A stretch of DNA of 64,000 bases from Streptomyces sp. NBC_00539 (GTDB taxonomy: Bacteria > Actinomycetota > Actinomycetes > Streptomycetales > Streptomycetaceae). The position numbers and the translations under genes were made by a program. Positions 11,394 through 60,914 of the stretch are shown one piece after another. The stretch's first letter is position 1. Each line of letters opens with the position of its first letter. A model generated the notes under the pieces. The model worked only from the letters and a program-made list of their open reading frames with translations, made no database searches and had not been told where the DNA came from. The DNA is taken from assembly GCF_036346105.1 (NCBI RefSeq), contig NZ_CP107811.1, positions 2,672,501-2,736,500 of the forward strand, given 5' to 3'.

Positions 11394-11413
11394 GAGCGTG
11401 CGGCCGGCAGCCG

Positions 11414-12159: not shown

Positions 12160-12167
12160 CGCAGCGT

Positions 12168-12854: not shown

Positions 12855-12880
12855 ACCGCCAGCATAACGAAACACGATAG

Positions 12881-12888: not shown

Positions 12889-12918
12889 ACTCCCCGAGTC
12901 GCGAGCGTCGGCGCGGCC

Positions 12919-12937
12919 CAGTGAGCCTTACCTCACA
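12919..12937. promoter_or_regulatory. Iron-box-like sequence upstream of class I fumarase
   Basis: On the minus strand the segment reads GTGAGGTAAGGCTCACT, close to the DmdR/IdeR iron-box consensus TTAGGTTAGGCTCACCTAA (13 matches in the 16-base core alignment) and itself an inverted repeat GTGAG-N6-CTCAC. A -10-like TACGCT follows at 12961-12966 for the fumarase gene. It also lies upstream of the divergent DUF1707 gene. Confidence 0.4.
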
Positions 12938-13024
12938 AGCACAGCCGTCCGGGGAGGTCCTACGCTGGTGGACTGCGCTGCCAATTGGTCGTCAGTGCTG
13001 TCTGCCGAGTGAGGAATGGCCACG

Positions 13025-14692
<1,668 letters not shown>

Positions 14693-35219: not shown

Positions 35220-35305
35220 CCGCCGACCGTAGGCCCCGGCGGGCGGCGGGGACATGGGCCCGGGGGCCCATCGGCCGGGACGCGTCGGCGCCTACCCTGA
35301 CGGAC

Positions 35306-46216: not shown

Positions 46217-46852
46217 CTACTTCTCGCTGCGGGGGAAGGTGATCTCGACGCGGCGGTTCTTCTTGCGGCCCTCTTCAGTGCCGTTGTCGGCGATCGGGTA
46301 GTCCTCGCTGTAACCCCGGACGTCGAAGATGACCCCGGGGCTGGTCACCGTCTTGGCGAGTTCCGCCTGTACGGCGTCGGCGCGCTGCTTGGACAGTTCC
46401 TTGCCGTGCTCGTAGCTGCCCTGGTCGTCGGTGAACCCGAAGACCCGGACGCGGGTCGCCTTCTGCTGGTTGATCTCCTGTGCGATGGCCTGGATGCGGG
46501 CGGCGGCCTGGGCGTTGAAGACGGCGCTGTCCTCGGGGAAGAGCACCTCGGCCTGCAGGGCCATCATGACGGTCTGGTTGGTCTCCTGCCGCCGCTGCTC
46601 CCCGCCGAGGTCCTCGACGACCTCGGCGATGTCGAGCACCTTGATGGGGGCCAGCGTTCCGCCCTGCGGGATCTTGAGGCCGGGCGCGTTGGAGTCGATG
46701 GCCACGGGCGCGGCGGCGGAGGGCTCGGTCCCGGGCGGCACGGAAGGCTTGACGTCGTCGGCGTACGCGGTGGTCGCGCCGAGGATGTGGGCGCCGGCGA
46801 TGACGAGGCCGGCGACGGCGGTCGCGGCGGAGACGCGGTGGCGTTTGGTCAT
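46217..46852 (-). CDS. Exported OmpA-like peptidoglycan-binding protein of the Tad locus
   Basis: A 211-residue protein. Signal peptide at about 1-31 (VAGLVIAGAHILGATTAYA). The mature start is proline/serine-rich. Residues about 95-205 are an OmpA C-terminal domain: EVLFPEDSAVFNAQAAARIQAIAQEI, RVRVFGFTDDQGS with the conserved G-F-T-D-D, LSKQRADAVQAEL, and the end GRKKNRRVEITF. Such domains bind meso-diaminopimelic acid in peptidoglycan. Last gene of the flp-tadG operon, 4 bases after the lipoprotein gene, so it may anchor the pilus to the wall. Confidence 0.88.
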   Translation of the reverse strand: MTKRHRVSAATAVAGLVIAGAHILGATTAYADDVKPSVPPGTEPSAAAPVAIDSNAPGLKIPQGGTLAPIKVLDIAEVVEDLGGEQRRQETNQTVMMALQAEVLFPEDSAVFNAQAAARIQAIAQEINQQKATRVRVFGFTDDQGSYEHGKELSKQRADAVQAELAKTVTSPGVIFDVRGYSEDYPIADNGTEEGRKKNRRVEITFPRSEK

Positions 46853-46856
46853 GGGG

Positions 46857-47444
46857 TCACCCGGAGATTTTGACGGTGGCCGTGGCGAAGGTGGGGAGGC
46901 TGAAGTCCACCTCGGTGGTGGCGGCGGGGGGTGCGGGGAACTGGGCGAAGAACGGGATCGATTCCCCGGGGCCGACACTGGAGACGCCCGTTGTGCAGAG
47001 GCAGCGGGACTCCGTGTCCCGAAGTACGTAGTAGCGCTTCTTGCCCGCCTTATCGACCAGAGTCGCCCCCGCAACTGACTCTCCGGTGCCGTTGAGCTCG
47101 ACACCACGCCAGGTCGCCGTGTCGTTGTAGGACTGGGACCCCGTGTTCTTGATCTGACCGTTGACAGTGAGGAAGCCACCTTGGTCACGCCGCACTGAGT
47201 TGAGTTCCAACACCATCCCGCTGGCCCCCTTGGCGGTCGCCAAGATCTCAGTCGGTGCTGAGCTCTGGCCGTTGCTCGGTGCGGCGGACTGCTTCCCCGC
47301 CCCCGGAGATTGCGGAGAGGGTGGATTCTTCGACTTGCCCTCCCCGCCGTCGTCACCGCCGCATCCGGCCAACGCGAGGGCCAGGACCGCCGCAATCGCG
47401 ACGACCGTTCCCCTGCGAACCTTCGCCTTCTGCCGCATGCTCAT
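46857..47444 (-). CDS. Lipoprotein of the Tad locus
   Basis: A 195-residue exported lipoprotein of unknown family. The signal peptide ends at the lipobox ALALAGCGG with C28 as the lipidated residue. A serine/proline/glycine spacer (about 29-65) leads to a compact beta-rich domain: GMVLELNSVRRDQGGFLTVNGQIKNTGSQ, then a C-x-C pair in SRCLCTTGV, and GESIPFFAQFPAPPA. The pattern resembles immunoglobulin-like or DUF4352-type domains of surface lipoproteins. It lies between TadG-like and OmpA-like genes. Confidence 0.75.
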   Translation of the reverse strand: MSMRQKAKVRRGTVVAIAAVLALALAGCGGDDGGEGKSKNPPSPQSPGAGKQSAAPSNGQSSAPTEILATAKGASGMVLELNSVRRDQGGFLTVNGQIKNTGSQSYNDTATWRGVELNGTGESVAGATLVDKAGKKRYYVLRDTESRCLCTTGVSSVGPGESIPFFAQFPAPPAATTEVDFSLPTFATATVKISG

Positions 47445-47475
47445 TTGTGCTGCTTCCTTGTCGATTCGTTGTGGG

Positions 47476-48108
47476 TCAGTCGGTCAGGCGCACGTCGAAG
47501 AGCTTTCTTGCCAGCACATGCCAGGGGTCGGGCTTGGACGGCTCAAAGCTGAGCTCCACCCCACCCTTGCACTCGATCTTTACGGGGCCCGAGTTCAGCA
47601 CCCCACTATCGACAGGACTCTGTGGTGCGCCGGGCGCCGCCGACGCCCCCAGGTGGCAGCGTGGTGTGATCAAAGCAGTGGCGTGGGCCGTGCCGTGCAT
47701 GGATTCAGTACCGGGGATGACCGAGGTCCCCACCGTGCCGTTGGTCTGTACCTTGACGGTGAAGCTGAGCCCGGACGATGTGCAGGTCGCACTTGCGTCG
47801 TTCCGCGTGGCGAAGCTCGTGGCCTCCCCGCATGCGCCCGCTGGGTCGAATAGGTTGCCGAGAACGAGCTTCTCCCAGTCCTTGGGCTGGAGATCAGTTA
47901 GGACCACACCTGGAACCAACGTGTCCCTGGCCTTTTGAGCCGCTGCCAATGCCGCGGCATCAGCCGCTCCTTGTGCATCACTGCGGGTGACTCCGGCTTG
48001 GCCGATGACAAAAAACGCGAGCGCGGCGAAGAGCAGTCCCGCCACCATCACCACATATATGGGAAAGGCCTGCCCGCGGTCGCGGTCACGCACCCGGCGT
48101 GCGGCCAC
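47476..48108 (-). CDS. TadG-like pilus assembly protein
   Basis: A 210-residue protein from GTG 48108, whose first base is shared with the last base of the flp stop codon (TAGTG). The N-terminus has RDRDRGQAFPIYVVMVAGLLFA, the same R-G-Q processing-like motif as the pilins, but with I instead of E at position +5 after the putative cut. The next segment, VTRSDAQGAADAAALAAAQKARD, is the conserved TadG N-terminal helix. The rest is an extracytoplasmic domain with several cysteines. TadG is a minor or anchoring component of Tad pili. Confidence 0.82.
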   Translation of the reverse strand: MAARRVRDRDRGQAFPIYVVMVAGLLFAALAFFVIGQAGVTRSDAQGAADAAALAAAQKARDTLVPGVVLTDLQPKDWEKLVLGNLFDPAGACGEATSFATRNDASATCTSSGLSFTVKVQTNGTVGTSVIPGTESMHGTAHATALITPRCHLGASAAPGAPQSPVDSGVLNSGPVKIECKGGVELSFEPSKPDPWHVLARKLFDVRLTD

Positions 48109-48353
48109 TAGCCGGCTTTGATGCTCGTCACCGCGTCCTTGATGCGCTTGGTGATCTCCGAACCGATACCCGAGCCGACGATCGCGCCGATGATGACCAC
48201 CACGACCAGGATGATCCCCAGGTACTCGAAGGCCGTTTGGCCGCGGTCCAGGCCCGCGTATCGCTTGCGGAGGCTCGCCACCGCCGTGTCCGTCCACCCA
48301 CTTACCCGGACCTTCGTCTGAACGGTGGCCTTGAGCAGGGTGTTGTGTGACAT
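48108..48353 (-). CDS. flp: Flp-type major pilin
   Basis: An 81-residue prepilin. The cleavage motif is at G38-Q39, in LDRGQTAFEYLG, with the pilin glutamate E43 at position +5 and Y44, then the hydrophobic helix IILVVVVIIGAIVGSGIG and a short lysine-rich tail. This matches Flp pilins of type IVb (Tad) pili. The leader of 38 residues is long; many Flp leaders are under 20. A promoter and an inverted repeat lie directly upstream, so it can be expressed apart from the ATPase operon. Confidence 0.88.
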   Translation of the reverse strand: MSHNTLLKATVQTKVRVSGWTDTAVASLRKRYAGLDRGQTAFEYLGIILVVVVIIGAIVGSGIGSEITKRIKDAVTSIKAG

Positions 48354-48393
48354 GGGGGTTTCCTCCCGGGCCGGTGCCGCTGTCGATGGGCGG

Positions 48394-48449
48394 ACAATAC
48401 GGGGAGTTAGCGGTGGTGACCAAGGGTCCCGGGGCCCAAATACGGACCC
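48394..48449 (-). promoter_or_regulatory. flp promoter with upstream inverted repeat
   Basis: On the minus strand TTGGTC (48418-48423), 18 bases, TATTGT (48394-48399), then a 40-base leader to the flp start. Directly upstream of the -35 box is GGGTCC-N14-GGACCC (48424-48429 and 48444-48449). This is the place where an activator would sit; the response regulator encoded next door is the obvious candidate. Confidence 0.55.
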
Positions 48450-48463
48450 ACTGCGTCAGGCGT

Positions 48464-49150
48464 CTACCCATGGCCGGTCACTCCTGGACGGGCCGTTCCG
48501 AGCCAGCGGGCTATCGCTTCGCTGCGGGTGGTGGTCTGGAGCTTCGCGAAGATGCGGTTGATGTGGTTCTTGACCGTCTTCTCGCTGATGAAGCAGGCCG
48601 CCGCGATCTGTTGGTTGTTCATCCCGGATGCGATCAGGTCCATGACCTCCTCCTCCCGGGAACTCAGGCCGTAGGCCATCTGGTTGACGAGTTGCTGAGA
48701 AGACTGTGCCACAACTGGTTGCGTTTGCGAAGAGGCGCGGAGTTCCGCGAGCAGGGCGTTCGCCGCCGTCGGGGTGAGGTGGGCGCGGCCGGCGTGGGTG
48801 TCGTGGATGGCCCGGATCAGGTGGTCCGGGGTGAATTCGCCGTGGACCAGGTAGCCGCCCGCGCCCAGGAGCAGGGCCTCCCGGACGACCTCCGCCTCCT
48901 GGCTGTACGTCAGCATCAGGACCGGCGCCAGCCGGACGAGGTGCGGGAGGGCCGAGATGCCGTCGACGCCCGGCATGCGGACGTCGAGTAGGACGACGTC
49001 GGGCCGGTGGAGGCGGGTCAGGTTCAGCGCCTCGCGGCCGTCCGCCGCCTGGGCGGTGACCTCCAGGCCCTCGGCGGTCGCCAGCAGGGCGGCCAGGCCC
49101 GCCCGGACGACGGGGTTGTCGTCGGCGATCAGGATCCGCAGCGGGGGCAT
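48464..49150 (-). CDS. NarL/FixJ-type response regulator of the Tad locus
   Basis: A 228-residue two-component regulator. The receiver domain starts MPPLRILIADDNPVVRAGLAALL; the acidic pocket is D10/D11 and the phosphorylated aspartate is D56 in VVLLDVRMPGVDG. The LuxR-type helix-turn-helix near the C-terminus reads LSSREEEVMDLIASGMNNQQIAAACFISEKTVKNHINRIFAKL. The ATG overlaps the kinase stop by one base (TGATG), so the pair is coupled. It is the last gene of the upstream Tad operon and precedes the flp promoter by one intergenic region. Confidence 0.92.
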   Translation of the reverse strand: MPPLRILIADDNPVVRAGLAALLATAEGLEVTAQAADGREALNLTRLHRPDVVLLDVRMPGVDGISALPHLVRLAPVLMLTYSQEAEVVREALLLGAGGYLVHGEFTPDHLIRAIHDTHAGRAHLTPTAANALLAELRASSQTQPVVAQSSQQLVNQMAYGLSSREEEVMDLIASGMNNQQIAAACFISEKTVKNHINRIFAKLQTTTRSEAIARWLGTARPGVTGHG

Positions 49151-50511
49151 CACGGGCTCCCCAAGGGGAGGTCGACCCGGACCAGGGTGCCGGGGCCGCC
49201 GTCCGGGCGGCCGCCGATGCGCAGGCCGGCCCCGATCGTCGCCGCGCGCTCCGTCATACCGAGCAGGCCGTAGTGGCCGGCGTCCGCCAGGGCGGTGACG
49301 TCGATCCCGGCGGGAGGCAGGCCCCGGCCGTCGTCCTCGACGGTCAGGGTCAGGGACGGGCCGGACACCGCCGCTTCCACCACGACCCGGGACGCGCACG
49401 CGTGGCGCCGGGCGTTCTCCAGGGCCTCGGAGGCCACCGCCAGGAGGTGCCCGGCGACGTCCGGGGGGAGCAGCGGCAGCGGCCCGGTGATACGGAGCTC
49501 CGCGCCCCCGCGCGCCAGCGCCCGCAGCTCCGCCGCGAGCGGGACGCCCGGGGCGTCCAGGTCCCGGCGCAGGTCCCGGCGCAGGTCCCGGCGCAGGTCC
49601 CGGCGCAGGTCCGTCAGCAGCTCCCGGGACTCCGCCGCCGCCCGGCGGGCCGCCTCCGCGACCGCCCGGGCCCGGCGGCGGGTGGCCTCCGGGTCGTCGG
49701 CGGTGCGGGAGAGGGCGTCGGCGGACAGGGCCAGGCCGTGCAGGGTCTTCGCCACCGAGTCGTGCATCTCGCGGGCCAGGCGCTCCCGTTCGGCCCGTAC
49801 CGCTTCGGCCGCCGCCAGCCGCGCCCGGGTCTCCGTCAGGGCCTGGCTCGCCGCCCCGAAGCGGAAGAGGAGGTCCCGCAGCGAGGCCCCCGCCGCGCCC
49901 GCCAGCAGGCACAGCGCGGCAAGCGTGAACCCGCCGGTGACGGCCGCCACCCACGCCACCCACGCCACCAACGCCGCCTGCGCGGCCGCGTAGAGCGCCG
50001 AGCCGCGCCACCCGTAGACCAGCCCGGCCAGCAGCGGTGTGCAGAGCGAGAGCAGGCCGAGCGGGGAGGAGGGGGTGGCGGTGATCAGGAGCAGCGCGCT
50101 GAACGCCGTGTCCACGGCCAGCAGCCAGGGGTGGCGCAGCAGCAGCGGCCCGAAGCGCTCCCAGTCGCGGAACAGGACGTAGGACAGCATGAAGGTGAGC
50201 AGGACCGCGCCGCCCACCAGGTACACGGGGGCGCCGGGCGCGGTGCGGCCGAGGGCCACGGGCGCGCCCAGGCCGAGCATCACCATCCGGAACGCGAAGA
50301 CCCGACGGCACAGTGCCTGCAACGCGTTCACCTGGAGGGCGAGCGGAGGGGCCGGCCGCGCCGCGGCACCACGCGCGGCCGTAACCGGGGCCGAGACCGG
50401 GGCCGGGGCGGTGGACGTGGCCGGGGCCGAGGCGGTGGACGTGGCCGGGGCCGAGGCGGTGGACGTGGCCGGGGCCGGGGCCGGGGCCCCGAAATCGATC
50501 GTGGCGGCCAT
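49150..50511 (-). CDS. NarX-type sensor histidine kinase of the Tad locus
   Basis: A 453-residue membrane kinase. The N-terminal 55 residues are a low-complexity alanine/threonine/serine/proline stretch made of repeats. About five or six hydrophobic segments follow (about 70-225), with almost no outside domain. The dimerisation box is RERLAREMHDSVAKTLHGLALSAD with the phosphorylated histidine in M-H-D-S-V. A four-fold LRRD repeat leads to the ATPase domain: SEALENARRHACASRV (N-box), VEDDGRGLPP and HYGLLGMTERAATIG. With no large sensor domain, the signal may come from the membrane. Confidence 0.9.
   Translation of the reverse strand: MAATIDFGAPAPAPATSTASAPATSTASAPATSTAPAPVSAPVTAARGAAARPAPPLALQVNALQALCRRVFAFRMVMLGLGAPVALGRTAPGAPVYLVGGAVLLTFMLSYVLFRDWERFGPLLLRHPWLLAVDTAFSALLLITATPSSPLGLLSLCTPLLAGLVYGWRGSALYAAAQAALVAWVAWVAAVTGGFTLAALCLLAGAAGASLRDLLFRFGAASQALTETRARLAAAEAVRAERERLAREMHDSVAKTLHGLALSADALSRTADDPEATRRRARAVAEAARRAAAESRELLTDLRRDLRRDLRRDLRRDLDAPGVPLAAELRALARGGAELRITGPLPLLPPDVAGHLLAVASEALENARRHACASRVVVEAAVSGPSLTLTVEDDGRGLPPAGIDVTALADAGHYGLLGMTERAATIGAGLRIGGRPDGGPGTLVRVDLPLGSP
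49560..49607 (-). repeat. Four 12-bp tandem repeats in the kinase gene
   Basis: Four identical copies of GGTCCCGGCGCA (plus-strand orientation) encode four LRRD units between the histidine-containing helix domain and the ATPase domain. A partial fifth copy follows. Length change would keep the frame. Confidence 0.93.
50408..50479 (-). repeat. Three 24-bp tandem repeats in the kinase gene
   Basis: Three 24-base units (50408-50431, 50432-50455, 50456-50479), the first two identical, encode SAPATSTA-type units in the N-terminal tail of the kinase. Confidence 0.93.
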
Positions 50512-50514
50512 GGC

Positions 50515-51408
50515 TCACCCGCTCCCGAACAGGGCGCCGAAGTCGATGTCCGCCCCGTAGACGAACCCGCACACGAGCAGGATCAGCGTGCCCGGCAGCA
50601 TGAACATGGTGACGGTGAAGGTGGCCTTGGGGACCGCCCGCGCAGCCCGGCGGCGGGCGTTCTGCGCGTCCGTGCGGCGCATGTCCTCCGCGATCGCGAT
50701 CAGCGTCTCCACGATCGGGGAGCCCAGCTCCTCGCCCTGCTGGAGGGCGGTGACGAACTGCGCCACCTGCTCGGAGTCGTTGCGCCGGCGCAGCTCGTCG
50801 AAGGCCTGGCGGCGGCTGACGCCCATGTCCATCTGCTGGAGGGTGATACGGATCTCGTCCGACCAGGGCCCCTCGTACTTGCCCGCGACCCGGTCCAGCG
50901 CCTGCCGGAAACCGAGCCCGGCGCTGACGACGACCGCCAGCACGTCCAGGAAGTCCGGCAGCGTCCGCTCGATGTGGTCCCGGCGCACCCGGATCGCCGA
51001 CCACAGGCCCGCCTCGATCCAGAACAGGCCGAAGGCGACCATGAGCAGGGCGGCCACCAACTGCCCGTTGACCAGCATCGCGAAGGCGCCGAGCGCGCCG
51101 AGGAACCCGTAGACGGCGCGCCGGGCCGCGTACCGGTCGATGGTCAGGCCGGCCGGGTTGCCCGCCATGTCGATCTGACGGCGCTTGCGGGCCACCCGGT
51201 CCGGGCCCATCAGCCGCAGCACCAGGGGGGCCCAGCGGATGCCCGTGCGGTCGACGAGCGAGCCGACGGCCGTGGTGCGGGTCGCGCCGACTTCGAGGGC
51301 GAGGGCGAGGTCGCTGGGCAGTTTGACGTCGGCGCGGTAGAGGCGGACCCCGTACAGGGCCCCGAAGACCGACAGCCCGAGGGCCGCGGCGAGCAGCAGT
51401 GCGGTCAC
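50515..51408 (-). CDS. tadC: TadC-like pilus inner-membrane protein
   Basis: A 297-residue type II secretion F-like membrane protein. GTG 51408 has a GAGGGGG ribosome site. Hydrophobic segments lie near the start (VTALLLAAALGLSVFGALYG), at about residues 105-140, and at the end (TVTMFMLPGTLILLVCGFVYG). The cytoplasmic T2SF domain has LPDFLDVLAVVVSAGLGFRQALDRVA and GSPIVETLIAIAEDMR. TadB and TadC form the membrane platform driven by the TadA ATPase. The kinase gene starts 3 bases after its stop. Confidence 0.88.
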   Translation of the reverse strand: MTALLLAAALGLSVFGALYGVRLYRADVKLPSDLALALEVGATRTTAVGSLVDRTGIRWAPLVLRLMGPDRVARKRRQIDMAGNPAGLTIDRYAARRAVYGFLGALGAFAMLVNGQLVAALLMVAFGLFWIEAGLWSAIRVRRDHIERTLPDFLDVLAVVVSAGLGFRQALDRVAGKYEGPWSDEIRITLQQMDMGVSRRQAFDELRRRNDSEQVAQFVTALQQGEELGSPIVETLIAIAEDMRRTDAQNARRRAARAVPKATFTVTMFMLPGTLILLVCGFVYGADIDFGALFGSG

Positions 51409-51418
51409 GTCGTCCCCC

Positions 51419-52357
51419 TCACACGTCGATCTTCGACAGCCGGCGGATGAGGACGAACCCCAGGGTGAACAGGCCGAGGGCGATGATGACCGCCGTCTGC
51501 CCGATGAACGCACCCGTCATGCGGTCCAGGGCGCCCGGCATCATCATGTCCACGAGCAGCAGCGACCCGAGCCCGATGGCCGGGACCAGGTACGCCGTCA
51601 CCGTCACCTGCGAGAGCTGCGTACGGATCTCCCTGCGCGTCTCCTTGCGCTGCTCCAGCGTCACCGTGAGGTTGCGCAGGCTCCCCACGAGGGCGCCGCC
51701 CGCGCGCGCGGACAGGACCAGGGTGGAGACGAGCACGACGAGTTCGCGCGAGGGCAGGCGTTCGGTCAGTTCGCCCAGGGACTCCTCGATGGAGTGGCCG
51801 ACGGCGAGGCGGTCGGCGACGCGGCCGAGCTCCTCGCCGGCCGGTGCCTCCAGTTCCTCCGCCGCCATGCCGATGGCGGTACGCAGCGCCAGGCCGGCCT
51901 GGGTGGCGTTGGCCAGGATGCGGGCGAGTTCGGGGAGCTGGTTGATGAACCGCTCCGTGCGGCGCGTGCGCTGCCAGTTGAGGAAGGCGTTGCCCGCCCA
52001 CAGCCCGATCAGGCCCGCCACCGGGCCGAAGAACGGGGCCAGCAGGGACGCCGAGACGAGCCAGACCCCGGTCACGGACATCAGCATGTAGACGAGGAAC
52101 TCGCCGGGGGTGAGGTCCAGGCCCGTGGTCGCCAGCTTCACCTCGATCCGGCGGCCCAGCCGGGTGCGGCGCAGCCGGCGGTCGACCCCGCGGAAGCGGC
52201 GCCGGCGGCCGAGCGGCTCCGGGGTTCCGCTCGCGGAGAGGCGTTCGACGAGGGCGGCGCGCTGGGCGCGGCCGGCGGCGTAGGCGTGTACGCCGAGGAC
52301 CACGAGCAGGCAGGCGAGCAGCGTGGCGCCGAGGGTGAGGAGGATCAAAGGGTTCAC
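51419..52357 (-). CDS. tadB: TadB-like pilus inner-membrane protein
   Basis: A 312-residue T2SF-family membrane protein. GTG 52357 overlaps the tadA stop by 4 bases (GTGA), so translation is coupled. Hydrophobic segments are at about 3-23, 95-130 and at the end (VIIALGLFTLGFVLI). The T2SF domain has INQLPELARILANATQAGLALRTAIGMAAEEL and SRELVVLVSTLVLSARAGGALVGSL. It forms the platform with TadC. The gap to tadC is 10 bases. Confidence 0.88.
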   Translation of the reverse strand: MNPLILLTLGATLLACLLVVLGVHAYAAGRAQRAALVERLSASGTPEPLGRRRRFRGVDRRLRRTRLGRRIEVKLATTGLDLTPGEFLVYMLMSVTGVWLVSASLLAPFFGPVAGLIGLWAGNAFLNWQRTRRTERFINQLPELARILANATQAGLALRTAIGMAAEELEAPAGEELGRVADRLAVGHSIEESLGELTERLPSRELVVLVSTLVLSARAGGALVGSLRNLTVTLEQRKETRREIRTQLSQVTVTAYLVPAIGLGSLLLVDMMMPGALDRMTGAFIGQTAVIIALGLFTLGFVLIRRLSKIDV

Positions 52358-53709
52358 AGGACGGTCCGGGTGGTCCGAGCGGTACGGGCGGCGAGCTGGT
52401 CGTCGGACATGGCGACCCCGAAGGCCTGCGGGATCGGCTGGTTGTTCATGTAGAGGCGGTCGGCGATCGTGCGCGGCAGCGGGTAGTACGCGAAGTGGCC
52501 GTGCACGCGCCCGTCCGCGGCCATCGGGCGGGCGGCGAACCGGCACACGGTGATGATCCGGAAGGGTTCGCGGCCGTGCGAGTCGAGGATGGAGATCTCG
52601 GTGATGCGGCGCGAGCCGTCGCCGAAGCGGGTGAGCTGGACGACGACGTTCACCGCGCTGTTGATCTGGTCCTGGAGCGCCTCGAACGGGATCTCCACCT
52701 CGGACATGGACGCCAGGGTCTGCAGGCGCATCAGGGCGTCCTCGGCGCTGTTGGCGTGGACGGTGGCCAGGGAGCCGTCGTGTCCGGTCGACATGGCCTG
52801 GAGCATGTCGAGGGTCTCGCCGCCGCGGACCTCGCCGACGATGATGCGGTCTGGGCGCATGCGCAGGGAGTTGCGCACGAGGTCGCGGATGGTGATCCGG
52901 CCGCTGCCCTCGACGTTGGCGGGGCGCGATTCGAGGCGGATGACGTGCGCCTGCTGGAGCTGGAGTTCGGCCGAGTCCTCGATGGTGATGATCCGCTCGC
53001 CCTCCGGGATCAGGCCGGAGAGGGCGTTGAGGAGGGTGGTCTTGCCGGTGCCGGTGGCCCCGGAGACGATCACGTTCATCTTCGCCTGCACCAGGCCGGA
53101 CAACAGGAGCAGCATCTGCTCGTCCAGCGAACCGAGGCTGATCATCTCGTGCAGGGTGAACGCGCGCGGGAAGCGGCGGATGGTGAGCGTGGCGCCGGTG
53201 AGGGAGAGCGGGGGGATGATCACGTTGACGCGCTCACCGCTGGGCAGGCGGGCGTCGACCATCGGATTGGCCTCGTCCACGCGGCGGTTGACGGTGGAGA
53301 CGATGCGCTCGATGGTCTGCATGAGCTGCTCGTGCGAGGCGAAGCGCAGCGGCAGCTGTTCGACGCGTCCGGCGCGCTCCACGAAGATCTGGTCGGGGCC
53401 GTTGACCATGATCTCGGAGATCGACGGGTCTTCGAGGAGCGGTTCCAGGACGCCGAGGCCGAGCGCCTCGTCGACGACGCGCCGGATGAGCTGGGCGCGT
53501 TCGACGGTGGACAGAACGGGGCCCTCGCGGCTGATGATGTGGCCCAGTACGCGTTCCAGCCGGGCCCGGCGCTCGGCGGGCGCGAGCGCCGACATCTCGG
53601 CGAGGTCGATCTCCTCCAGCAGCTTGGCGCGGTAGGAGGAGACCAGCCGGCCGTCCTCGCGCGGGTTGTGGCGGTCGTCGGGGGTGTTGACCCGGGAACG
53701 CAGGCTCAT
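52354..53709 (-). CDS. tadA: TadA/CpaF-type pilus assembly ATPase
   Basis: A 451-residue secretion ATPase. ATG 53709 (MSLRSRVNTPDDRHN) is the usual start for this group. The N-terminal domain has DPSISEIMVNGPDQIFVE. The core has Walker A IVSGATGTGKTTLLNALS, the Asp box EGERIITIEDSAELQLQ, IRDLVRNSLRMRPDRIIVGEVRGGE (Walker B) and the His box MSTGHDGSLATVHANS. It powers Flp pilus assembly by moving pilin through the TadB/TadC platform. It sits between the TadE-like gene (2 bases) and tadB (overlap). Confidence 0.95.
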   Translation of the reverse strand: MSLRSRVNTPDDRHNPREDGRLVSSYRAKLLEEIDLAEMSALAPAERRARLERVLGHIISREGPVLSTVERAQLIRRVVDEALGLGVLEPLLEDPSISEIMVNGPDQIFVERAGRVEQLPLRFASHEQLMQTIERIVSTVNRRVDEANPMVDARLPSGERVNVIIPPLSLTGATLTIRRFPRAFTLHEMISLGSLDEQMLLLLSGLVQAKMNVIVSGATGTGKTTLLNALSGLIPEGERIITIEDSAELQLQQAHVIRLESRPANVEGSGRITIRDLVRNSLRMRPDRIIVGEVRGGETLDMLQAMSTGHDGSLATVHANSAEDALMRLQTLASMSEVEIPFEALQDQINSAVNVVVQLTRFGDGSRRITEISILDSHGREPFRIITVCRFAARPMAADGRVHGHFAYYPLPRTIADRLYMNNQPIPQAFGVAMSDDQLAARTARTTRTVL

Positions 53710-53711
53710 CG

Positions 53712-54080
53712 TCAGGGTCCCTTCGGGTCGTCGTTGGGCATGACGGCGGTGGCGGTGGCGGGGTCGAGCGCGAGCCCGGGGATGATCGAGGTGACCGGGA
53801 TGGAGACGTTGGCGGTGACCGCGTCCCCGCCGCCGGACACCGTGATGGTGGCCGCGAGCCCCGAACGGATCGCCGCGTGGCCGGCCGCCTCCCCCGACCC
53901 CGGTTTGCGGGCTTCCACCCGGGCCGCCGTGCGCGCCGCCGTCTCGGCCTGCTGGTGGACGTAGCCGACCCAGCCGAGTTGGATGCCGCACAGCGCGACG
54001 AAGAGCAGGATGGGGATGAAGCCGATGTACTCCAGGGCCACTTGACCCCGGTCCCGAAAGGCGCGCCGGGTCCCTGTCAT
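53712..54080 (-). CDS. TadE-like minor pseudopilin 1
   Basis: A 122-residue protein. The motif FRDRGQVALEYIG places the putative cut at G12-Q13, with E17 at position +5, followed by the hydrophobic stretch FIPILLFVALCGIQLGWVGYV and QQAETAARTAARVEARK, the TadE helix. The C-terminal part is outside the membrane. Its start lies one base after the stop of the second TadE-like gene and has a GGGGAG ribosome site. Minor pilins of this class help to start or cap pilus assembly. Confidence 0.88.
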   Translation of the reverse strand: MTGTRRAFRDRGQVALEYIGFIPILLFVALCGIQLGWVGYVHQQAETAARTAARVEARKPGSGEAAGHAAIRSGLAATITVSGGGDAVTANVSIPVTSIIPGLALDPATATAVMPNDDPKGP

Positions 54081-54081
54081 C

Positions 54082-54450
54082 TCACTCCCCTCCCCTCTCC
54101 TGCTCCTGTGGCGAGCCGCCCTCGCCCGTGATGGGAACGCCGATGTCCAGCCCGGGGAACAGCACGGGGACGTGGAGCCTGACGGTCGCCTTGTAGATGT
54201 CCCCCGCGTTCCCGCAGTCCACCTCCACGGCCCAGGCGCCCCCGATGTGCCTGCGGGCCGCCGTCCCGCACGCGGCGTCGCCGTGCACGGCCCCGGCCCG
54301 CGCCGCCTCGTCGGCCGCATTGCCCGCCAGCGAGAACGCGTACCCGATCAGGACGCACTCCCACACCGCCGCGACGAGCAGCAGGATCAGCGGCACCATG
54401 CCGACGAACTCGACGGCCACCTGTCCACGGTCCCGGCTCCGCGCGGCCAC
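54082..54450 (-). CDS. TadE-like minor pseudopilin 2
   Basis: A 122-residue protein from GTG 54450. The motif SRDRGQVAVEFVG puts the putative cut at G9-Q10, with E14 at position +5. The hydrophobic helix MVPLILLLVAAVWECVLIGYAFSLAG and the A-D-E-A-A-R-A-G-A-V segment match TadE. The periplasm-like domain has two cysteines (DAACGTA and VDCGNAG) that may form a disulfide, and a PVLFPGLDIGVPITGEGG segment shared in form with pseudopilin 1. It lies 4 bases after the CpaE-like gene. Confidence 0.87.
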   Translation of the reverse strand: MAARSRDRGQVAVEFVGMVPLILLLVAAVWECVLIGYAFSLAGNAADEAARAGAVHGDAACGTAARRHIGGAWAVEVDCGNAGDIYKATVRLHVPVLFPGLDIGVPITGEGGSPQEQERGGE

Positions 54451-54454
54451 GGCC

Positions 54455-55720
54455 TCACCCCTCCCGGCCCCGGCGGAGCCGGGCCAGTGGTCCGGCCGCC
54501 GCCCGTACGGCCAGTTCGGCGGAGGGGGGTTCGGCGGTGGTGGTGGCCGGGGCGGACAGCAGGCCGAGTTCCCCCGCCAGCTTCCACAGAGCCTGCTTGA
54601 CCGTCGAGCGGTTGTCGAGGTCCTGGACGCGGCCCGCGTCCACCACCGCCTGGAGCTCCTTGAAGGCGGCGGGGACCGGGGTGCGGGTGACCCGGGTCCC
54701 GGTGATCTTCTCGATGAGGGCGGGCTGGATCTCGGTGTGCCTGCTCCAGCGGTTGACGACCATCACGGTGTCCTCGGCCTTGCGGACCTGGAGCCGCTCC
54801 CACATCCGCACCAGCCGTTTGGCGGCCCGTACCGCGACCACGTCGGGGGTGGTGACCAGGACCGCGACCTCGGCCAGCTCCACGGCGGCCGCGTTCGCCC
54901 CGGTGACCTGGGTCCCGCAGTCGATGACGACCAGCTCGTAGCGGGCGCGCAGGGCGGCGATGACGAGCCGGGCGGCCCGTTCGTCGACCTCCTCGCCCCG
55001 TTCGCCGTCGCCCGGGGCCAGCAGCAGCGCGAGCCCGGTGCGGTCGTCGTACACGGCGTCCTGGAGGACGCGGGGGGAGATGTCCTGGATCCCGGCGAGG
55101 TCGGCGACCGAGCGGCGGAACTGCACGTCGAGGTAAGAACCGACGTCCCCGGCCTGGAGGTCCAGGTCCATCAGGGCCGTACGGCGCCCGGAGGCGGCCG
55201 CGGCGAGGGCGAACTGCACCGCCGTGAAGGTGGTCCCGACGCCGCCCTTGGCTCCGGCGACGGTCACCACCCGGCCGCCGGGACCGGACGGCTGCTGCTG
55301 GCCACCGCCCAGGTGGCGGCGTACGCCCGCGGACCACTGGGCGGCGGCCTGGACGCGGGCGGCCAGTTCCTCGTAGGTGACGGGCAGTCCGATCAGGCCC
55401 CGCGCCCCGGAGTCCATGGCGGCGGAGAACAGGGCGGGCCCGGCGTCGGACGACAGCAGGACCACGCCCACCGCCGGGAAGCGCAGGGCGACCTCCCGGA
55501 CGAGTTCCAGGGCGGGCAGCGGGCCGATCCGCTCGTGGACGAGGACCACCTCGGGCAGTGCGTCGACGGACTCGGCGGCGAGCCGTGCCAGCGTGTCGAG
55601 CAGGGCCGTCGAGTCGGTGACGGGCCCGGCCGGTTCGGCGTCGGGGAGCCGGCCCAGGAGGGTGGCGATGAGGCGGGCGGCGTCCGGGTCGCCGGCCGCG
55701 GGGAGGATTCGGGTGCTCAT
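54455..55720 (-). CDS. CpaE-like (TadZ) ATPase
   Basis: A 421-residue protein. The N-terminal third is a receiver-like domain (LPEVVLVHERIGPLPALELVREV, VGVVLLSSDAG) without a clear phosphorylation site. The C-terminal domain is a MinD/ParA-type ATPase with the deviant Walker A AGAKGGVGTTFTAVQFA, ALMDLDLQAGDVGSYLDV, and VVIDCGTQ. CpaE/TadZ proteins place the pilus machine in the cell. It belongs to the same compact operon, 7 bases from cpaB. Confidence 0.88.
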   Translation of the reverse strand: MSTRILPAAGDPDAARLIATLLGRLPDAEPAGPVTDSTALLDTLARLAAESVDALPEVVLVHERIGPLPALELVREVALRFPAVGVVLLSSDAGPALFSAAMDSGARGLIGLPVTYEELAARVQAAAQWSAGVRRHLGGGQQQPSGPGGRVVTVAGAKGGVGTTFTAVQFALAAAASGRRTALMDLDLQAGDVGSYLDVQFRRSVADLAGIQDISPRVLQDAVYDDRTGLALLLAPGDGERGEEVDERAARLVIAALRARYELVVIDCGTQVTGANAAAVELAEVAVLVTTPDVVAVRAAKRLVRMWERLQVRKAEDTVMVVNRWSRHTEIQPALIEKITGTRVTRTPVPAAFKELQAVVDAGRVQDLDNRSTVKQALWKLAGELGLLSAPATTTAEPPSAELAVRAAAGPLARLRRGREG

Positions 55721-55727
55721 CCGGGCC

Positions 55728-56429
55728 TCACTTGTCCCCGTCGAGGGTGTACGTGCGGTCGCCCGGGCCGGGGGCCGACTCGGTGCCGGGGGCCACCAGG
55801 GCCAGCCGTACGTGCTCCGCGAACGACTCGGCGTACGCGACGCGCTGGGTGTCCTTGGTGTTCAGGGCGAAGGTGATCGGGACCGCCTCGGCGGGGCCCT
55901 TCTTGTCGCTGTCCTTGTCCAGGGGGGTGAGCTTGCCGACGTTCAGGACGCGGGCGTTGGCGACGATGATCACCGAGCGGGAGGGATCGGTGTCCTTCGC
56001 GCCCTTGAAGGTGGCGATGATGTTGACCTTGGCACCGGAGGTGATCTTGCCGGCCACCCCGGTCGCGGCGTCGATCATGATCGCGATCTCCTGCTCGCCC
56101 GGCTGGAGCTGGGGCTTGTCGACGAACATGTCCTCCTGGAGGAGGGAGCCCTTCTTGAGCGTGGTGAGGGCGATCTTGCCCTTGAGCGCGCCGAGGTCGG
56201 TGACGGCGGTCTCGGACAGCCATCGCTTGGGGACCTTGACCTCCTCGAACTGGCCCGCGCCGAGGGGGCTGTACGGGGCGATGTCCCCCTTCACGCGGTA
56301 CGCGACGACCTCGGACCCGACCTTGGAGTTGACGTCGCCGATCACCACGAGGACCCCGGCGAACGCCGCGAGCGCGCACAGGACGGACAGCAGCAGCAGG
56401 ATGACGCCGCGGCGCTGGCGTGAGTTCAT
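55728..56429 (-). CDS. CpaB/RcpC-like Flp pilus assembly protein
   Basis: A 233-residue protein. A membrane anchor at about 8-30 (GVILLLLSVLCALAAFAGVLVVIG) is followed by an SAF-type domain: VVAYRVKGDIAPYSPLGAGQFEEVKVPKRWL and TTLKKGSLLQEDMF. Then comes the RcpC/CpaB C-terminal domain (EQEIAIMIDAATGVAGKITSGAKVNIIATF). In Gram-negative cells CpaB works with the secretin; here it must act in a monoderm envelope, so its partner differs. Start ATG 56429. Confidence 0.87.
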   Translation of the reverse strand: MNSRQRRGVILLLLSVLCALAAFAGVLVVIGDVNSKVGSEVVAYRVKGDIAPYSPLGAGQFEEVKVPKRWLSETAVTDLGALKGKIALTTLKKGSLLQEDMFVDKPQLQPGEQEIAIMIDAATGVAGKITSGAKVNIIATFKGAKDTDPSRSVIIVANARVLNVGKLTPLDKDSDKKGPAEAVPITFALNTKDTQRVAYAESFAEHVRLALVAPGTESAPGPGDRTYTLDGDK

Positions 56430-56469
56430 GAGCCGTACTACCTCGCCGTTCTTCGTTCGTTCGGGCCGG

Positions 56470-57381
56470 TCAGAGTCGGGATCTGGACGGTGCTGCGCTC
56501 TGCCCGCCGGCGGGCGGCGGCGCCGGTGGCGGCGCGGTCAGCGGGGCCGAGCAGAAGCCGCAGCGGTCGCCGATGAGTTCCATGCCGCACCAGCGGCACT
56601 CCTCGCGGCGGACCGAGGCGACGAGCTGGTAGAGCACGGACGGGTCCGGGATGGCGGCGGCGAACTCGACGAGCTTCGGGGTCGCCCACCAGGCGGCCGA
56701 GTCGGCGGGCAGCGGGTTCTCCATGACGCCGGCGACCTGCCAGGCGGGCGCCAGTTCGGCCGCCACCCAGTCGGAGGCGAGCTGGCCGCGGGCGAAGGTG
56801 AGGTGCGTGACGAAACCGGGGCCGGGCGGCAGTACGGCGGCGCCGCCCGCGTGCGCACCCGAGGAGGCCGAGGGCGCCAGCCTGGCGAGGTGGGGCGTGG
56901 GGTGCGCGAGTACGGCGAACTGGGCACCCGGTGACCAGGAGCGGGCGTGGGCCTTGAGCCCGACCGGCACCCGGTCCAGTTTGGCGACGCTGCCCAGCAG
57001 GGCGCCCGCGTAGATGTAGTGGGACAGCAGCCTGGCCGCCGAGGCGAGGACCCCGGGGCTGAACTCGCAGACGCTGAGCTGGCGCAGCTGACGGACCAGC
57101 AGGGCGGTGCCCAGCGGGGGCAGGTCGGCCTCGACCAGCGCCATGCGGTCGGTTTCCAGGATGGCCCGTACGGTGTGCAGCCGCCGCACGGTGGCGGCGG
57201 GCAGCCAGGACGGTACGACCACCACGAGGTGGCCGTGCGCCTCCAGCAGGGCGGTGGTCTCGGCGAGCGCCCCTTCGAGGTCGAGCTGTCCGGGCGGGCG
57301 CAGCACGGCGGCGCCCGGGGTGTGCCGGTCGGGGGCGGGCAGCACCAGGTCGGCGCTGGTGACAGCAATGGCGGTCGGCAC
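56470..57381 (-). CDS. Uncharacterised protein with C-terminal zinc ribbon, first gene of the Tad operon
   Basis: A 303-residue protein from GTG 57381, with GGGGGGA as ribosome site; an in-frame start at 57408 is less well placed. I do not recognise a family. The body is mixed alpha/beta without membrane segments (LLEAHGHLVVVVPSWLP, LGTALLVRQLRQLSVCEFSPGVLASAARLL). Near the end ECRWCGMELIGDRCGFC has two C-x-x-C pairs ten residues apart, a zinc ribbon. A proline/alanine tail follows. It lies 40 bases before cpaB and starts the compact operon, so a link with the pilus is likely but unproven. Confidence 0.75.
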   Translation of the reverse strand: MPTAIAVTSADLVLPAPDRHTPGAAVLRPPGQLDLEGALAETTALLEAHGHLVVVVPSWLPAATVRRLHTVRAILETDRMALVEADLPPLGTALLVRQLRQLSVCEFSPGVLASAARLLSHYIYAGALLGSVAKLDRVPVGLKAHARSWSPGAQFAVLAHPTPHLARLAPSASSGAHAGGAAVLPPGPGFVTHLTFARGQLASDWVAAELAPAWQVAGVMENPLPADSAAWWATPKLVEFAAAIPDPSVLYQLVASVRREECRWCGMELIGDRCGFCSAPLTAPPPAPPPAGGQSAAPSRSRL

Positions 57382-57631: not shown

Positions 57632-57670
57632 TTGACAAGAGCCTTGACACCGCGATTGGTCTGGACCAAC
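57632..57670 (+). promoter_or_regulatory. Chitinase promoter region with DasR-type site
   Basis: ATTGGTCTGGACCAAC (57655-57670) closely matches the DasR-responsive element ACTGGTCTAGACCACT. Just upstream TTGACA occurs twice, at 57632-57637 and 57644-57649, exactly 12 bases apart, like the direct repeats of Streptomyces chitinase promoters. The gene-free stretch 57382-57742 holds this region and the divergent Tad-operon promoter region; I see nothing else there. Confidence 0.75.
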
Positions 57671-57742
57671 TTGGCTCCCGGGGGTCCCCCACACGCCCCC
57701 GTCACCCCGTTCACATCCCCCTCTCCCCCCACCGGAGCCTTC

Positions 57743-59437
57743 GTGAACCGCATACGCTCCCTCGCCCTGCCCCTCGCCGCCACGCTCGCCGCCGGCGCCC
57801 TGACCGCCGCCGGCGCCGGTACGGCACAAGCCGCCGACGTCAACGTCGCCCGTAACGGAGGCTTCGAGTCCGGCCTGGCCGACTGGTCCTGTTCGGGCGG
57901 CAGCGGCGCCGCCGTCACCTCCCCCGTCTTCTCGGGCAGCGGCGCCCTCAGGGCCACCCCGGCCGGCCAGGACGAGGCCCGGTGTTCCCAGACCGTCACG
58001 GTCAAGCCGAATTCCACGTACACGCTCAGCGCGCAGGTGCAGGGCTCGTACGTGTACCTCGGCGCGACCGGGACCGGCACCCAGGACGTGTCCACCTGGA
58101 CCCCGGGGTCCGGCGGCGGCTGGCAGAAGCTGTCCACCACCTTCTCCACCGGGCCGAACACCACCAAGGTCACCGTCTGGACGCACGGCTGGTACGGCCA
58201 GCCGGCCTACGTGGCGGACGAGTTCAGCGTCTTCGGCCCGGACGGGGGCGGCGGCACCGACCCCGGTCCGAGCGTCCCGGGGGCGCCCTCGGCGCCCGCC
58301 GTTTCCGGTCAGAGCGCGAGCGCCCTCACCCTTTCGTGGAACGCGGTCGGCGGCGCGAGCGGCTACCACGTGTATCAGGACGGCGTCCGCGTCCGGACCG
58401 TCACCGCCTCCCCCGTCCAGCTCACCGGGCTCGCCGCCGCCACCTCGTACTCGTTCCAGGTGAGCGCGTACAACGCGGCGGGCGAGGGCCCGAGGTCGGC
58501 GGCGGTGACCGGGACCACCACCGGCGGCGGCAACCCGAACCCCAACCCGGCGGTACCCAAGCACGCCCTGACGGGCTACTGGCAGAACTTCAACAACGGT
58601 GCGACCGTCCAGAAGATCTCGGACGTCTCCGCCCAGTACGACATCATCGCCGTCTCCTTCGCCGACGCCACGACCACGCCGGGTGCCATCTCCTTCACCC
58701 TGGACTCGGCCGGCCTGGGCGGGTACACGCCGGCGCAGTTCAAGGCGGACGTCGCGGCGAAGAAGGCGGCCGGGAAGTCCGTCGTCCTCTCGATCGGCGG
58801 CGAGAAGGGCACCATCTCGGTGGGCGACTCCGCCTCCGCGAACAACCTGGCGAACTCGGCGTACGCACTGATGCAGGAGTACGGGTTCAGCGGCATCGAC
58901 ATCGACCTGGAGAACGGCCTCAACCCGACCTACATGACGCAGGCGCTGCGCTCGCTGTCCGCCAAGGCCGGATCGTCGTTCGTGCTGACGATGGCGCCGC
59001 AGACGATCGACATGCAGTCGACCGCGGGCGGCTATTTCAAGACGGCCCTGAACGTCAAGGACATCCTGACCGTCGTCAACATGCAGTACTACAACAGCGG
59101 CTCGATGAACGGCTGTGACGGCAAGGTCTACTCCCAGGGGACGGTGGACTTCCTGACCGCCCTCGCCTGCATCCAGCTGGAGGGCGGCCTCGACCCCTCG
59201 CAGGTGGGACTCGGCGTCCCCGCCTCGCCCAGCGGCGCGGGCAGCGGCTACGTCTCGCCGACCACGGTGAACAACGCCCTGGACTGCCTCGCGCGGGGCA
59301 CGAACTGCGGGTCCTTCAAGCCGTCGAAGACCTACCCCGGGCTGCGCGGCGCAATGACCTGGTCGACCAACTGGGACGCCAAGGCGGGTAGCGCTTGGTC
59401 CGACACGGTGGGTCCGAAGGTCCACGCGCTCCCTTAG
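57743..59437 (+). CDS. Secreted chitinase, family 18, with CBM and fibronectin domains
   Basis: A 564-residue exported enzyme from GTG 57743. Signal peptide ends near residue 31 (AGTAQAADV). A beta-sandwich carbohydrate-binding domain follows (about 33-168; NGGFESGLADWSCSGG, VTVKPNSTYTLSAQV). A fibronectin type III domain lies at about 178-258 (APSAPAVSGQSASALTLSWNAVGGASGYHVY), with a short N-P linker. The GH18 domain (about 272-564) has KSVVLSIGGEKGT and the catalytic FSGIDIDLENG (D-x-D-x-E), then VLTMAPQT and MQYYNSG. It breaks chitin to oligosaccharides. The DasR-type site upstream agrees with control by N-acetylglucosamine status. Confidence 0.93.
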   Translation: MNRIRSLALPLAATLAAGALTAAGAGTAQAADVNVARNGGFESGLADWSCSGGSGAAVTSPVFSGSGALRATPAGQDEARCSQTVTVKPNSTYTLSAQVQGSYVYLGATGTGTQDVSTWTPGSGGGWQKLSTTFSTGPNTTKVTVWTHGWYGQPAYVADEFSVFGPDGGGGTDPGPSVPGAPSAPAVSGQSASALTLSWNAVGGASGYHVYQDGVRVRTVTASPVQLTGLAAATSYSFQVSAYNAAGEGPRSAAVTGTTTGGGNPNPNPAVPKHALTGYWQNFNNGATVQKISDVSAQYDIIAVSFADATTTPGAISFTLDSAGLGGYTPAQFKADVAAKKAAGKSVVLSIGGEKGTISVGDSASANNLANSAYALMQEYGFSGIDIDLENGLNPTYMTQALRSLSAKAGSSFVLTMAPQTIDMQSTAGGYFKTALNVKDILTVVNMQYYNSGSMNGCDGKVYSQGTVDFLTALACIQLEGGLDPSQVGLGVPASPSGAGSGYVSPTTVNNALDCLARGTNCGSFKPSKTYPGLRGAMTWSTNWDAKAGSAWSDTVGPKVHALP

Positions 59438-59576
59438 GCGGTACGTGTGGGGGTGACCGGTGACCGACCGGCCCGACCGCATTCTGGCCGGTTTCGGATT
59501 CTTGACCCGGACATGCCACGAGAGCACGCTGTGCGCGTCCGCACGGCTACCCCCACACTCCCACCCAGGAGAACGC

Positions 59577-60914
59577 ATGCGGCTCCACAACCGTCGGAGG
59601 GCCGCCGTCACGGCGGCCCTCCTGGCCCTGGCGCTCGGCGCACCCGCCTACGGGATGAGCGCGACGGCCGCCCCGCCACCCACCCCCTCCACCGCCACCC
59701 AGGACGAGTCCGTCGCCCAGTACGAGGTCCGGGGCCCGGCAACGGCGGCCGAACGCACCGCCCTGCTGCGCACCGGCGTCTCGATCGACGAGGTGGACGC
59801 CCGCTCCGTCGTCGTCAGCGCGGACCCCGCCCAGGCCAAGCACCTCCGTGCGCTCGGCTACGAGATCACCCCGCTGCCCGGGCCGCCCGACCGCTCGCTG
59901 AGCGGCGTGGCCACGGGAGTGAACGACTTCCCGTCCGCCGACTCGAATTACCACAACTACGCCGAGGCGACGGCGGAGATCAACCAGCGCATCGCCCAGT
60001 ACCCGTCGATCATGAGCAAGCAGGTCATCGGGAAGTCGTACCAGGGCCGGGACATCATCGCGATCAAGATCAGCGACAACGTCGGGACCGACGAGGCCGA
60101 GCCCGAAGTGCTCTTCACGCACCACCAGCACGCCCGTGAGCACCTGACCGTGGAAATGGCCCTGTACCTGCTCAAGGAGTTCGGCTCCAAGTACGGCTCC
60201 GACGCCCGGGTCACCAACATGGTCAACAGCCGCGAGATCTGGATCGTCCCGGACCTCAACCCCGACGGCGGCGAGTACGACATCGCCTCCGGCTCCTACC
60301 GCTCGTGGCGCAAGAACCGGCAGCCCAACTCCGGCTCCTCCTACGTCGGCACGGACCTGAACCGGAACTGGGACTACAAGTGGGGCTGCTGCGGCGGCTC
60401 CAGCGGCAGCAAGAGCTCCGAGACCTACCGCGGCACGGCCGGCGAGTCGGCCCCCGAGGTGAAGGTCGTCGCGGACTTCGTCCGCAGCCGCGTGGTCGGC
60501 GGCAAGCAGCAGATCAAGGCCGCCATCGACTTCCACACCTACAGCGAGCTCGTGCTGTGGCCGTTCGGGTGGACGTACAACGACACGGCGCCCGGCATGA
60601 CCGCCGACGACCTCGCCGCGTACAAGAAGATCGGCACCAGCATGGCCACCAGCAACGGCTACACGCCGGAGCAGTCCAGCGACCTGTACATCACCGACGG
60701 CACGATCGACGACTGGCTGTGGGGCAACCAGAAGGTCTTCGCCTACACCTTCGAGATGTACCCGAGCGACACGGGCGGCGGGGGCGGCTTCTACCCGCCC
60801 GACGAGGTGATCGACCGCGAGACGGCGCGCAACCGGGACGCCGTGCTCCAACTGCTGGAGAACGCGGACTGCATGTACCGCTCGATCGGCAAGGAGGCGC
60901 AGTACTGCGCCTAG
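59577..60914 (+). CDS. Secreted zinc carboxypeptidase (M14)
   Basis: A 445-residue exported preproenzyme. ATG 59577 has an AGGAGA site. Signal peptide about 1-32, then a propeptide (about 33-115). The M14 domain starts near [13 protein letters not shown]. Zinc ligands H185 and E188 are in [13 protein letters not shown], the third ligand in [17 protein letters not shown]; the substrate-binding residues are in [17 protein letters not shown]; and the catalytic glutamate is in YTFEMYPSD. It resembles the T-type carboxypeptidase of Streptomyces griseus, which removes both hydrophobic and basic C-terminal residues. Stands alone between the chitinase gene and a terminator. Confidence 0.93.

Follow-up and report, generated by a model that had tools for sequence, protein, structure and literature searches.

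Fourteen genes on the minus strand of a 64,000-nucleotide stretch of the Streptomyces sp. NBC_00539 genome (hereafter the window), packed into two blocks at 46217-57381, encode a predicted Tad (type IVc) pilus machine for a single-membraned cell, and the response regulator gene of this locus goes together with an operator-like box directly ahead of the pilin gene flp. The core of the same box recurs before the prepilin peptidase gene, and in related species the box precedes large genes in which a Flp-like prepilin segment is followed by toxin-like domains. We compared the locus with 80 hand-picked loci out of 119 TadA matches in other genomes (loci and genomes are labelled L or G plus a number). 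Taken together, these comparisons make it probable that a core Tad machine is combined with regulator-box control of flp and the peptidase gene, giving a regulated display of pilins, and sometimes of toxins or adhesins, at contact.

The box occupies 48420-48452 (minus strand), within the 110-bp interval from regulator to flp that is the sole larger gap of the locus; gaps inside the blocks run from -4 to 40 bp. It spans about 33 bp and holds a 7-2-7 inverted heptamer, TGGGYCC-N2-GGRCCC, with its core at 48424-48438, 71 bp ahead of the flp start, and a third, direct copy of TGGGYCC upstream of the dyad. Its conserved form reads TGGGYCC-N5-TGGGYCC-N2-GGRCCC. We modelled it as TTGGGCCC-N4-TTGGGCCC-N2-GGRCCC (30.6 bits), and the window site scored 39.7 bits with a position weight matrix (PWM). 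A first search for inverted repeats before flp found the commonest GGGCC/GGCCC dyad in 26 of 49 regulator-bearing loci versus 0 of 20 regulator-less ones. With the PWM, a site above 14 bits stood between tadC and the lipoprotein gene in all 55 regulator-bearing loci (window included) versus 1 of 25 without the regulator, and a fixed regular expression gave 52/55 versus 0/25 (L015, which has no tadG, was left out of the operator counts). The one regulator-less site, in L053 at 14.9 bits, looks like a relic. When 45 whole genomes were searched with up to one mismatch allowed, the long pattern matched in 21 of 23 with the regulator versus 1 of 22 without, and a reversed control pattern gave 3 matches. 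The single regulator-less match (G088) lies 1.16 Mb from the tad locus with no pilin gene noticed nearby, and we therefore took it as chance. Within the window the long pattern occurs once at up to three mismatches (0.08 expected).

The linked sensor kinase (49150-50511, minus strand; Pfam HisKA_3 4.2e-13, HATPase_c 5.3e-8) and NarL/LuxR-type regulator (48464-49150, minus strand; Response_reg 5.2e-23, GerE 1.2e-19) have the domains of a NarL-type system, as called, like the other families of the locus, by Pfam and NCBIfam hidden Markov model (HMM) searches of the locus and neighbour proteins. Regulators of the NarL type bind paired heptamers in a 7-2-7 layout; the present box differs from the usual ones in its TGGGYCC heptamer, in the third direct copy upstream and in a target that would be a pilus regulon. 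On this pattern we infer that the regulator acts on the box before flp. Directly following the regulator's stop codon as a GC-rich inverted repeat, the box could instead serve flp as a core promoter element, terminate transcription of the regulator gene or bind some other protein, and it might have been carried off passively whenever the pair was deleted. We hold this to be unlikely, given that the sequence is conserved and not its pairing alone, that the heptamers match the NarL-type layout, that the box is absent before flp in 24 of the 25 regulator-less loci, and that copies of the box, or of its core dyad, are also found ahead of peptidase genes and ahead of large fusions remote from the locus.

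Kinase and regulator follow tadC in 52/80 loci; in two near relatives, L006 and L007, the kinase is gone and regulator and operator remain, which brings regulator-bearing loci to 54/80, and both genes are missing from the other 26. The kinase of L045 is reduced to a 37% remnant. In the window, the kinase has a low-complexity, Ala/Pro/Thr-rich N-terminus with an RRDL tandem repeat. A search of the 26 pair-less genomes for a relocated regulator turned up no close one in 25 (best identity at most 46%, the level of generic paralogs; true orthologs in four control genomes reached 67-69%), so the absences look like losses with the pilus kept; the remaining genome, G039, has a 67% ortholog on another contig. 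On a tree built from 1687 core columns, presence of the pair needs 7 changes, at least 6 of them on strongly supported branches, and since outgroups carry the pair these changes are most simply losses. The pair is accordingly ruled out as an invariable part of the locus. The original prediction had credited the locus with its own two-component system and had named absence of the two genes from orthologous loci as evidence to the contrary; it stands in so far as the operator goes with the regulator, and falls short in that 26 of 80 loci lack both genes and 2 more the kinase alone. At least six changes of state with a constant pilus might suggest that the pair is a mere neighbour, unlinked to pilus function. 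That seems to us very improbable: other families keep the pair beside tadC (L085-L087, where the gene order is retained as a whole, and L093-L095), and the operator both co-occurs with the regulator and points at flp.

A second candidate target is the gene for a TadV/PilD-like A24 prepilin peptidase (34482-35219, minus strand; Pfam PF01478 9.5e-12), its start placed at 35219 by likeness to the L140 peptidase. It lies about 11 kb from the pilus locus and is the only Peptidase_A24 match in the 7.5-Mb genome; the original prediction, in calling the locus complete, had overlooked it. A second 7-2-7 dyad (35255-35270, minus strand; PWM score 16.7) stands 36 bp ahead of its start. The core TGGGYCC-N2-RGRCCC occurs at these two places only, before flp and before the peptidase gene, with 3 strand-wise matches in the window (0.11 expected), and the peptidase version, TGGGCCC-N2-GGGCCCA, occurs once (0.01 expected). 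Among 28 regulator-bearing genomes, 8 have the dyad before their peptidase gene, as do the window genome, G017 and G049. Another set of 4 regulator-bearing loci shows it in 3, the fourth (L042, the same as G089) being negative among the 28 as well; it was found in 0/12 and 0/18 regulator-less genomes (two sets sharing nine). All genomes with the dyad have the peptidase close to the pilus locus, and among the 28 it was present in 8/11 with a linked peptidase and 0/17 with an unlinked one. Linkage itself is common: in 24 of 47 genomes, window genome included, the distance from tadA downstream to the peptidase gene is 6-39 kb (0.22 expected by chance), and 44 of 46 other well-assembled genomes of the genus have a single Peptidase_A24 match. 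In most genomes with the peptidase near the locus, then, the regulator would act on this core dyad too. In L015 (G039), the peptidase directly follows tadC, the regulator ortholog is the one on another contig, and no OmpA match occurs in the genome.

The operator also marks genes of another kind. Whole genomes held 18 sites away from flp, and 15 of these closely precede large Flp-like open reading frames (ORFs), from which pilus and fusions seem to share control; at G049:5324724 the large Flp-like ORF begins only 770 bp on, and at G063:3906687 there is none. A scan of an 84,980-species collection yielded, among the matches listed, 120 stretches with at least 121 sites, 115 of them testable (6 had too little DNA). 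Among those listed, 105 of 115 sites precede Flp-like ORFs (91 short Flp, 1 truncated, 13 large), 69 of 80 titles are Streptomyces, and Flp genes likewise follow the box in Xylanimonas and at 2 of 3 sites in Cellulomonas. Two of the large hits are probably short Flp frames that run on, namely L031 and L154, the latter counted with doubt among the 13; L130 falls short of its relatives in length. Close to the pilus locus, within 18 kb, large Flp-like ORFs occur in 13 of 54 regulator-bearing versus 0 of 25 regulator-less loci; among 16 large ORFs near loci, the one at L018 (12872) is probably an extension of the flp frame, and 3 are without operator, two of these starting at the locus edge.

Twenty-six large proteins (25 distinct, those of L132 and L166 being identical) share the segment G/xxxxEYxG, the slash marking the cleavage site, in which the cleavage glycine, the tyrosine and the next glycine are invariant and the glutamate nearly so. 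Their C-termini match Tox-REase-5 in 11 cases (best E 2.7e-22), Abhydrolase_8 in 4 and PT-HINT in 2, the rest having no clear family. An Abhydrolase_8 pilin fusion is present in L134-L137, and in L134 it is adjoined by a lipoprotein and a transglycosylase plus an NlpC/P60 wall hydrolase, as if a wall-crossing module travelled with it. By eye, a stand-alone membrane protein at L142:4351-4797 resembles the membrane region that forms the N-terminal part of the pilin fusion at L139:1909-3927. Flp-like proteins of about 500 residues ending in ...FLGAP...YSYCA, without clear Pfam family, recur in L142-L144, L160, L244, L012, L043, L044, L046, L047, L050 and L082 and are possibly tip proteins.

The fusions make contact antagonism by the pilus plausible. 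We propose tentatively that the Streptomyces Tad pilus is a launcher of regulated contact antagonism, in which the NarL-type pair, by way of one operator, would switch on the pilin, the peptidase where it is still linked and pilin-fused polymorphic toxins of Tox-REase-5, hydrolase and HINT types, each toxin having its own prepilin cleavage site, being displayed on or delivered by the pilus and being accompanied by immunity genes. It is also quite possible, if short of an even chance, that this is an ordinary adhesion or surface-sensing Tad pilus and that the toxin-like fusions are lineage-specific accessories, silent on its main role here too. Tad pili elsewhere serve adhesion and sensing, to go by the accessible text of one paper (PMC13170226); large fusions near the locus are limited to the 13 of 54 regulator-bearing loci given above; the window's own genome matches the long pattern, at up to one mismatch, at the flp site alone; and in 25 loci the pilus genes persist in the absence of the regulator, with the operator missing too in 24. 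Set against this are the 15 of 18 extra operator sites that closely precede large Flp-like ORFs.

Several points weigh against regulated, contact-linked display as a whole. At up to one mismatch the long pattern matches only the flp site in the window's own 7.5-Mb genome, and the window showed no large fusion, the rest of the genome having been searched only for the operator pattern; the weapon reading consequently rests on relatives. Immunity is represented by Imm52 matches in 3 of 4 neighbours of Tox-REase-5 fusions, at 20.0-24.8 bits, below the Pfam cut-off of 25. Flp-like genes are absent after 8 of 88 PWM sites in the loci examined and, among the matches listed, after 10 of 115 sites, and since the pattern was drawn from flp promoters, Flp matches are partly expected; large ORFs are not. 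The PWM was trained on regulator-bearing loci, and hold-out runs began from the full-data matrix and were then retrained: with clades A, B and D held out, scores were 19-39, bar L023 (3, from a mis-set interval), and regulator-less loci reached at most 16; clade C (7 loci with the core dyad only) was not recovered (scores -2 to 4). In six independent tree pairs, operator and regulator agreed in 5.5 on average and were opposite in none, which leaves the sign test borderline (p 0.03-0.06). The peptidase dyad is confined to 8 of the 28 regulator-bearing genomes. Finally, the pair-bearing outgroups (L085-L087 and L093-L095) have no site above 14 bits, so that the operator is younger than the pair.

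A third role, DNA uptake, is suggested by Micrococcus luteus, an actinobacterium whose transformation depends on its Flp pilus according to the available text of PMC4322843, and whose Flp pilus genes resemble those studied here. This role is improbable in the present case: no competence family was found among the locus and neighbour proteins scanned, and the other operator targets found are pilin fusions. Regulated display of pilins, in some species of pilin-linked toxins or adhesins, on contact with surfaces or neighbouring cells is most likely the role of the locus.

Gene by gene, the machine is ordinary in kind, and it resembles Caulobacter Cpa (Tad/Flp, type IVc) in having TadA, TadB, TadC, TadZ, RcpC/CpaB, a Flp prepilin, TadE/G minor pilins and an A24 peptidase. 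From upstream to downstream on the minus strand, the first block comprises znr (56470-57381, treated below); cpaB/rcpC for an alignment-complex protein with SAF and RcpC domains (55728-56429; Pfam RcpC 7e-19; NCBIfam TIGR03177 80.8 bits, cut-off 71; 80/80 loci); cpaE/tadZ for a ParA/MinD-type localization ATPase (54455-55720; CbiA 3.5e-10, AAA_31 4.9e-9; 80/80 loci); the minor pilin genes tadE1 (54082-54450; TadE 6.2e-9) and tadE2 (53712-54080; TadE 6.1e-8); the secretion and assembly ATPase gene tadA (52354-53709; T2SSE 1.2e-76); and the membrane platform genes tadB (51419-52357; T2SSF 2.4e-17) and tadC (50515-51408; DUF5936 N-domain 1.7e-64, T2SSF 7.4e-21), followed by the kinase and regulator genes. 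The second block, after the box, comprises flp (48108-48353), a tadG-like minor pilin gene (47476-48093; PF13400, TadE/G-like, 3.8e-8; 79/80 loci), a lipoprotein gene (46857-47444) and an OmpA-family gene (46217-46852; PF00691 2.9e-15). Flp has 81 residues with the prepilin motif G/QTAFEY before a hydrophobic segment; the prepilin reads DRG/QTAFEYLGIILVVVV, giving a mature pilin of 44 residues, and an HMM built from it and 63 relatives matched at E 4e-33. Flp, the lipoprotein and znr had no Pfam family above cut-off. All fourteen genes, their two tight blocks and their order were as the original prediction had given them, HMM searches confirmed the family of each protein that has one, and the intact ATPase, platform and pilin it described were borne out by the T2SSE protein, the two T2SSF proteins and the Flp motif. 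It had also expected a machine of this type to lack a secretin gene, and none was found among the locus and window proteins scanned (the whole genome was not searched for secretins).

In the machine so composed, the peptidase would mature Flp and the minor pilins, TadA would drive TadB and TadC, TadZ would position the machine, and CpaB may extend the conduit outside the membrane. Conservation of the locus is far beyond chance. A TadA match of at least 72% identity is present in 120 of 121 same-genus genomes, the window genome included; the exception is a 1420-contig draft that still holds an OmpA-protein match at 56%, and its missing TadA is hence likely an assembly gap. Eight locus genes are present in 80/80 loci and tadG, lipoprotein and ompA in 79/80, so the synteny survey found eleven pilus genes kept almost throughout, and a Flp-type prepilin motif lies between tadC and tadG in 72/80 relatives. 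By these counts the locus appears to be part of the Streptomyces core genome. In the wider family, 20 of 51 other-genus genomes have close TadA orthologs and the remainder only more distant matches. L093, from another family, has three near-identical tandem Flp genes beside the pilus locus.

Where Gram-negative Tad machines have their secretin complex, the lipoprotein (a lipobox, a low-complexity linker and a beta-sandwich domain) and the OmpA-family protein, a predicted peptidoglycan binder, would tether the machine to peptidoglycan. In the outgroup loci L085, L086 and L087 a single ORF encodes both domains, that of the lipoprotein at E 5e-20 to 2e-15 and that of OmpA at E 5e-40 to 1e-37, together with a lipobox identified by eye, and this fusion suggests that the separate Streptomyces proteins act as one membrane-to-wall tether. 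D142 and R157 of the OmpA protein, presumably the peptidoglycan (diaminopimelate)-binding pair, are invariant in 33/33. Neither protein matched Pilus_CpaD (PF09476) at E up to 1. Their likeness to CpaD would thus be that of a functional analogue, not of a homolog. According to PMC13170226, Tad biogenesis in Caulobacter depends on the lipoprotein CpaD, which has a predicted OmpA-like fold and may bind peptidoglycan. The wall-anchor role put forward in the original prediction is strengthened by the three outgroup fusions, the invariant Asp/Arg pair and the CpaD analogue. The locus departs from Caulobacter Cpa in that no secretin was seen in it, that the lipoprotein and the OmpA protein come from separate genes and face just one membrane, that a DegV-like zinc-ribbon protein is added and that the peptidase is detached by 11 kb.

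This added protein, znr (303 residues), had been read as a zinc-ribbon protein. It does end in a Cys4 ribbon, but it is larger than that description, and the DegV/FakB-like body predicted for residues 1-245 in the fold model rules out a plain zinc ribbon. True membership of the DegV family was ruled out at the sequence level: there was no Pfam DegV match among 31 znr family members, and profile-profile comparison with 25 DegV domains scored no better than unrelated controls. Fatty-acid binding by znr cannot therefore be claimed. Divergent from znr, on the plus strand, lie genes for a family-18 chitinase-like protein with a carbohydrate-binding module and fn3 (57632-59437) and for an M14 carboxypeptidase (59460-60914); in several relatives (L142-L144 and others) the divergent slot is taken instead by a large Flp-like fusion with operator.

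The genome has a second, different Tad locus at 3.81 Mb (L004, G000:C1:3803000-3822000, about 8479-13500). Read by eye, it contains a septum-site-type ATPase, a TadA, two platform proteins and small pilin-like genes, and we take it to be of the actinobacterial Tad/Ssd type (Rv3654c-Rv3660c). Its TadA is 42% identical to that of the window, and it differs from the window locus in that no two-component pair or OmpA was noticed by eye among its ORFs; it has no box match above 10 bits. The one peptidase probably serves both loci.

For S. coelicolor, the literature notes a Tad locus (PMC3666418), and a Flp from this species is included in a published alignment (PMC9531140). Our search of titles and abstract beginnings in the open-licence literature, with subscription papers and preprints outside its scope, found among the matches listed no paper that examines the function of a Tad pilus in Streptomyces, or its operator or regulon. 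The closest precedent for contact killing is Myxococcus Kil, a Tad pilus whose minor pilins expose variable domains and which kills prey on contact (PMC12075869; PMC8460266, both in part); unlike this Streptomyces, Myxococcus is a diderm predator in which Kil works with a T3SS* and the tips are separate KilLMN complexes, and the accessible portions of those papers describe no toxin domain fused to a pilin segment. Flp pilins do figure among the trafficking domains joined to ARC toxin domains, with a Streptomyces mirabilis protein in a figure (Journal of Biological Chemistry 2025, PMC12605009). The accessible portion of that paper describes no operator, two-component control or Tad-locus link for the Flp-toxin fusions, and the families here are Tox-REase-5, Abhydrolase_8 and PT-HINT.

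We found no earlier report of the regulatory signature, and pilin-toxin fusions under the same signature in relatives may give the pilus a testable purpose. The lipoprotein-OmpA fusion offers a possible explanation of how cells that have no outer membrane anchor a Tad machine in their wall. With the operator come a promoter, an identified regulator and co-regulated genes hinting at cell contact, and the purpose of the pilus thereby becomes directly testable. If the contact-antagonism proposal is true, a monoderm best known for diffusible antibiotics would also have a pilus-built contact weapon.

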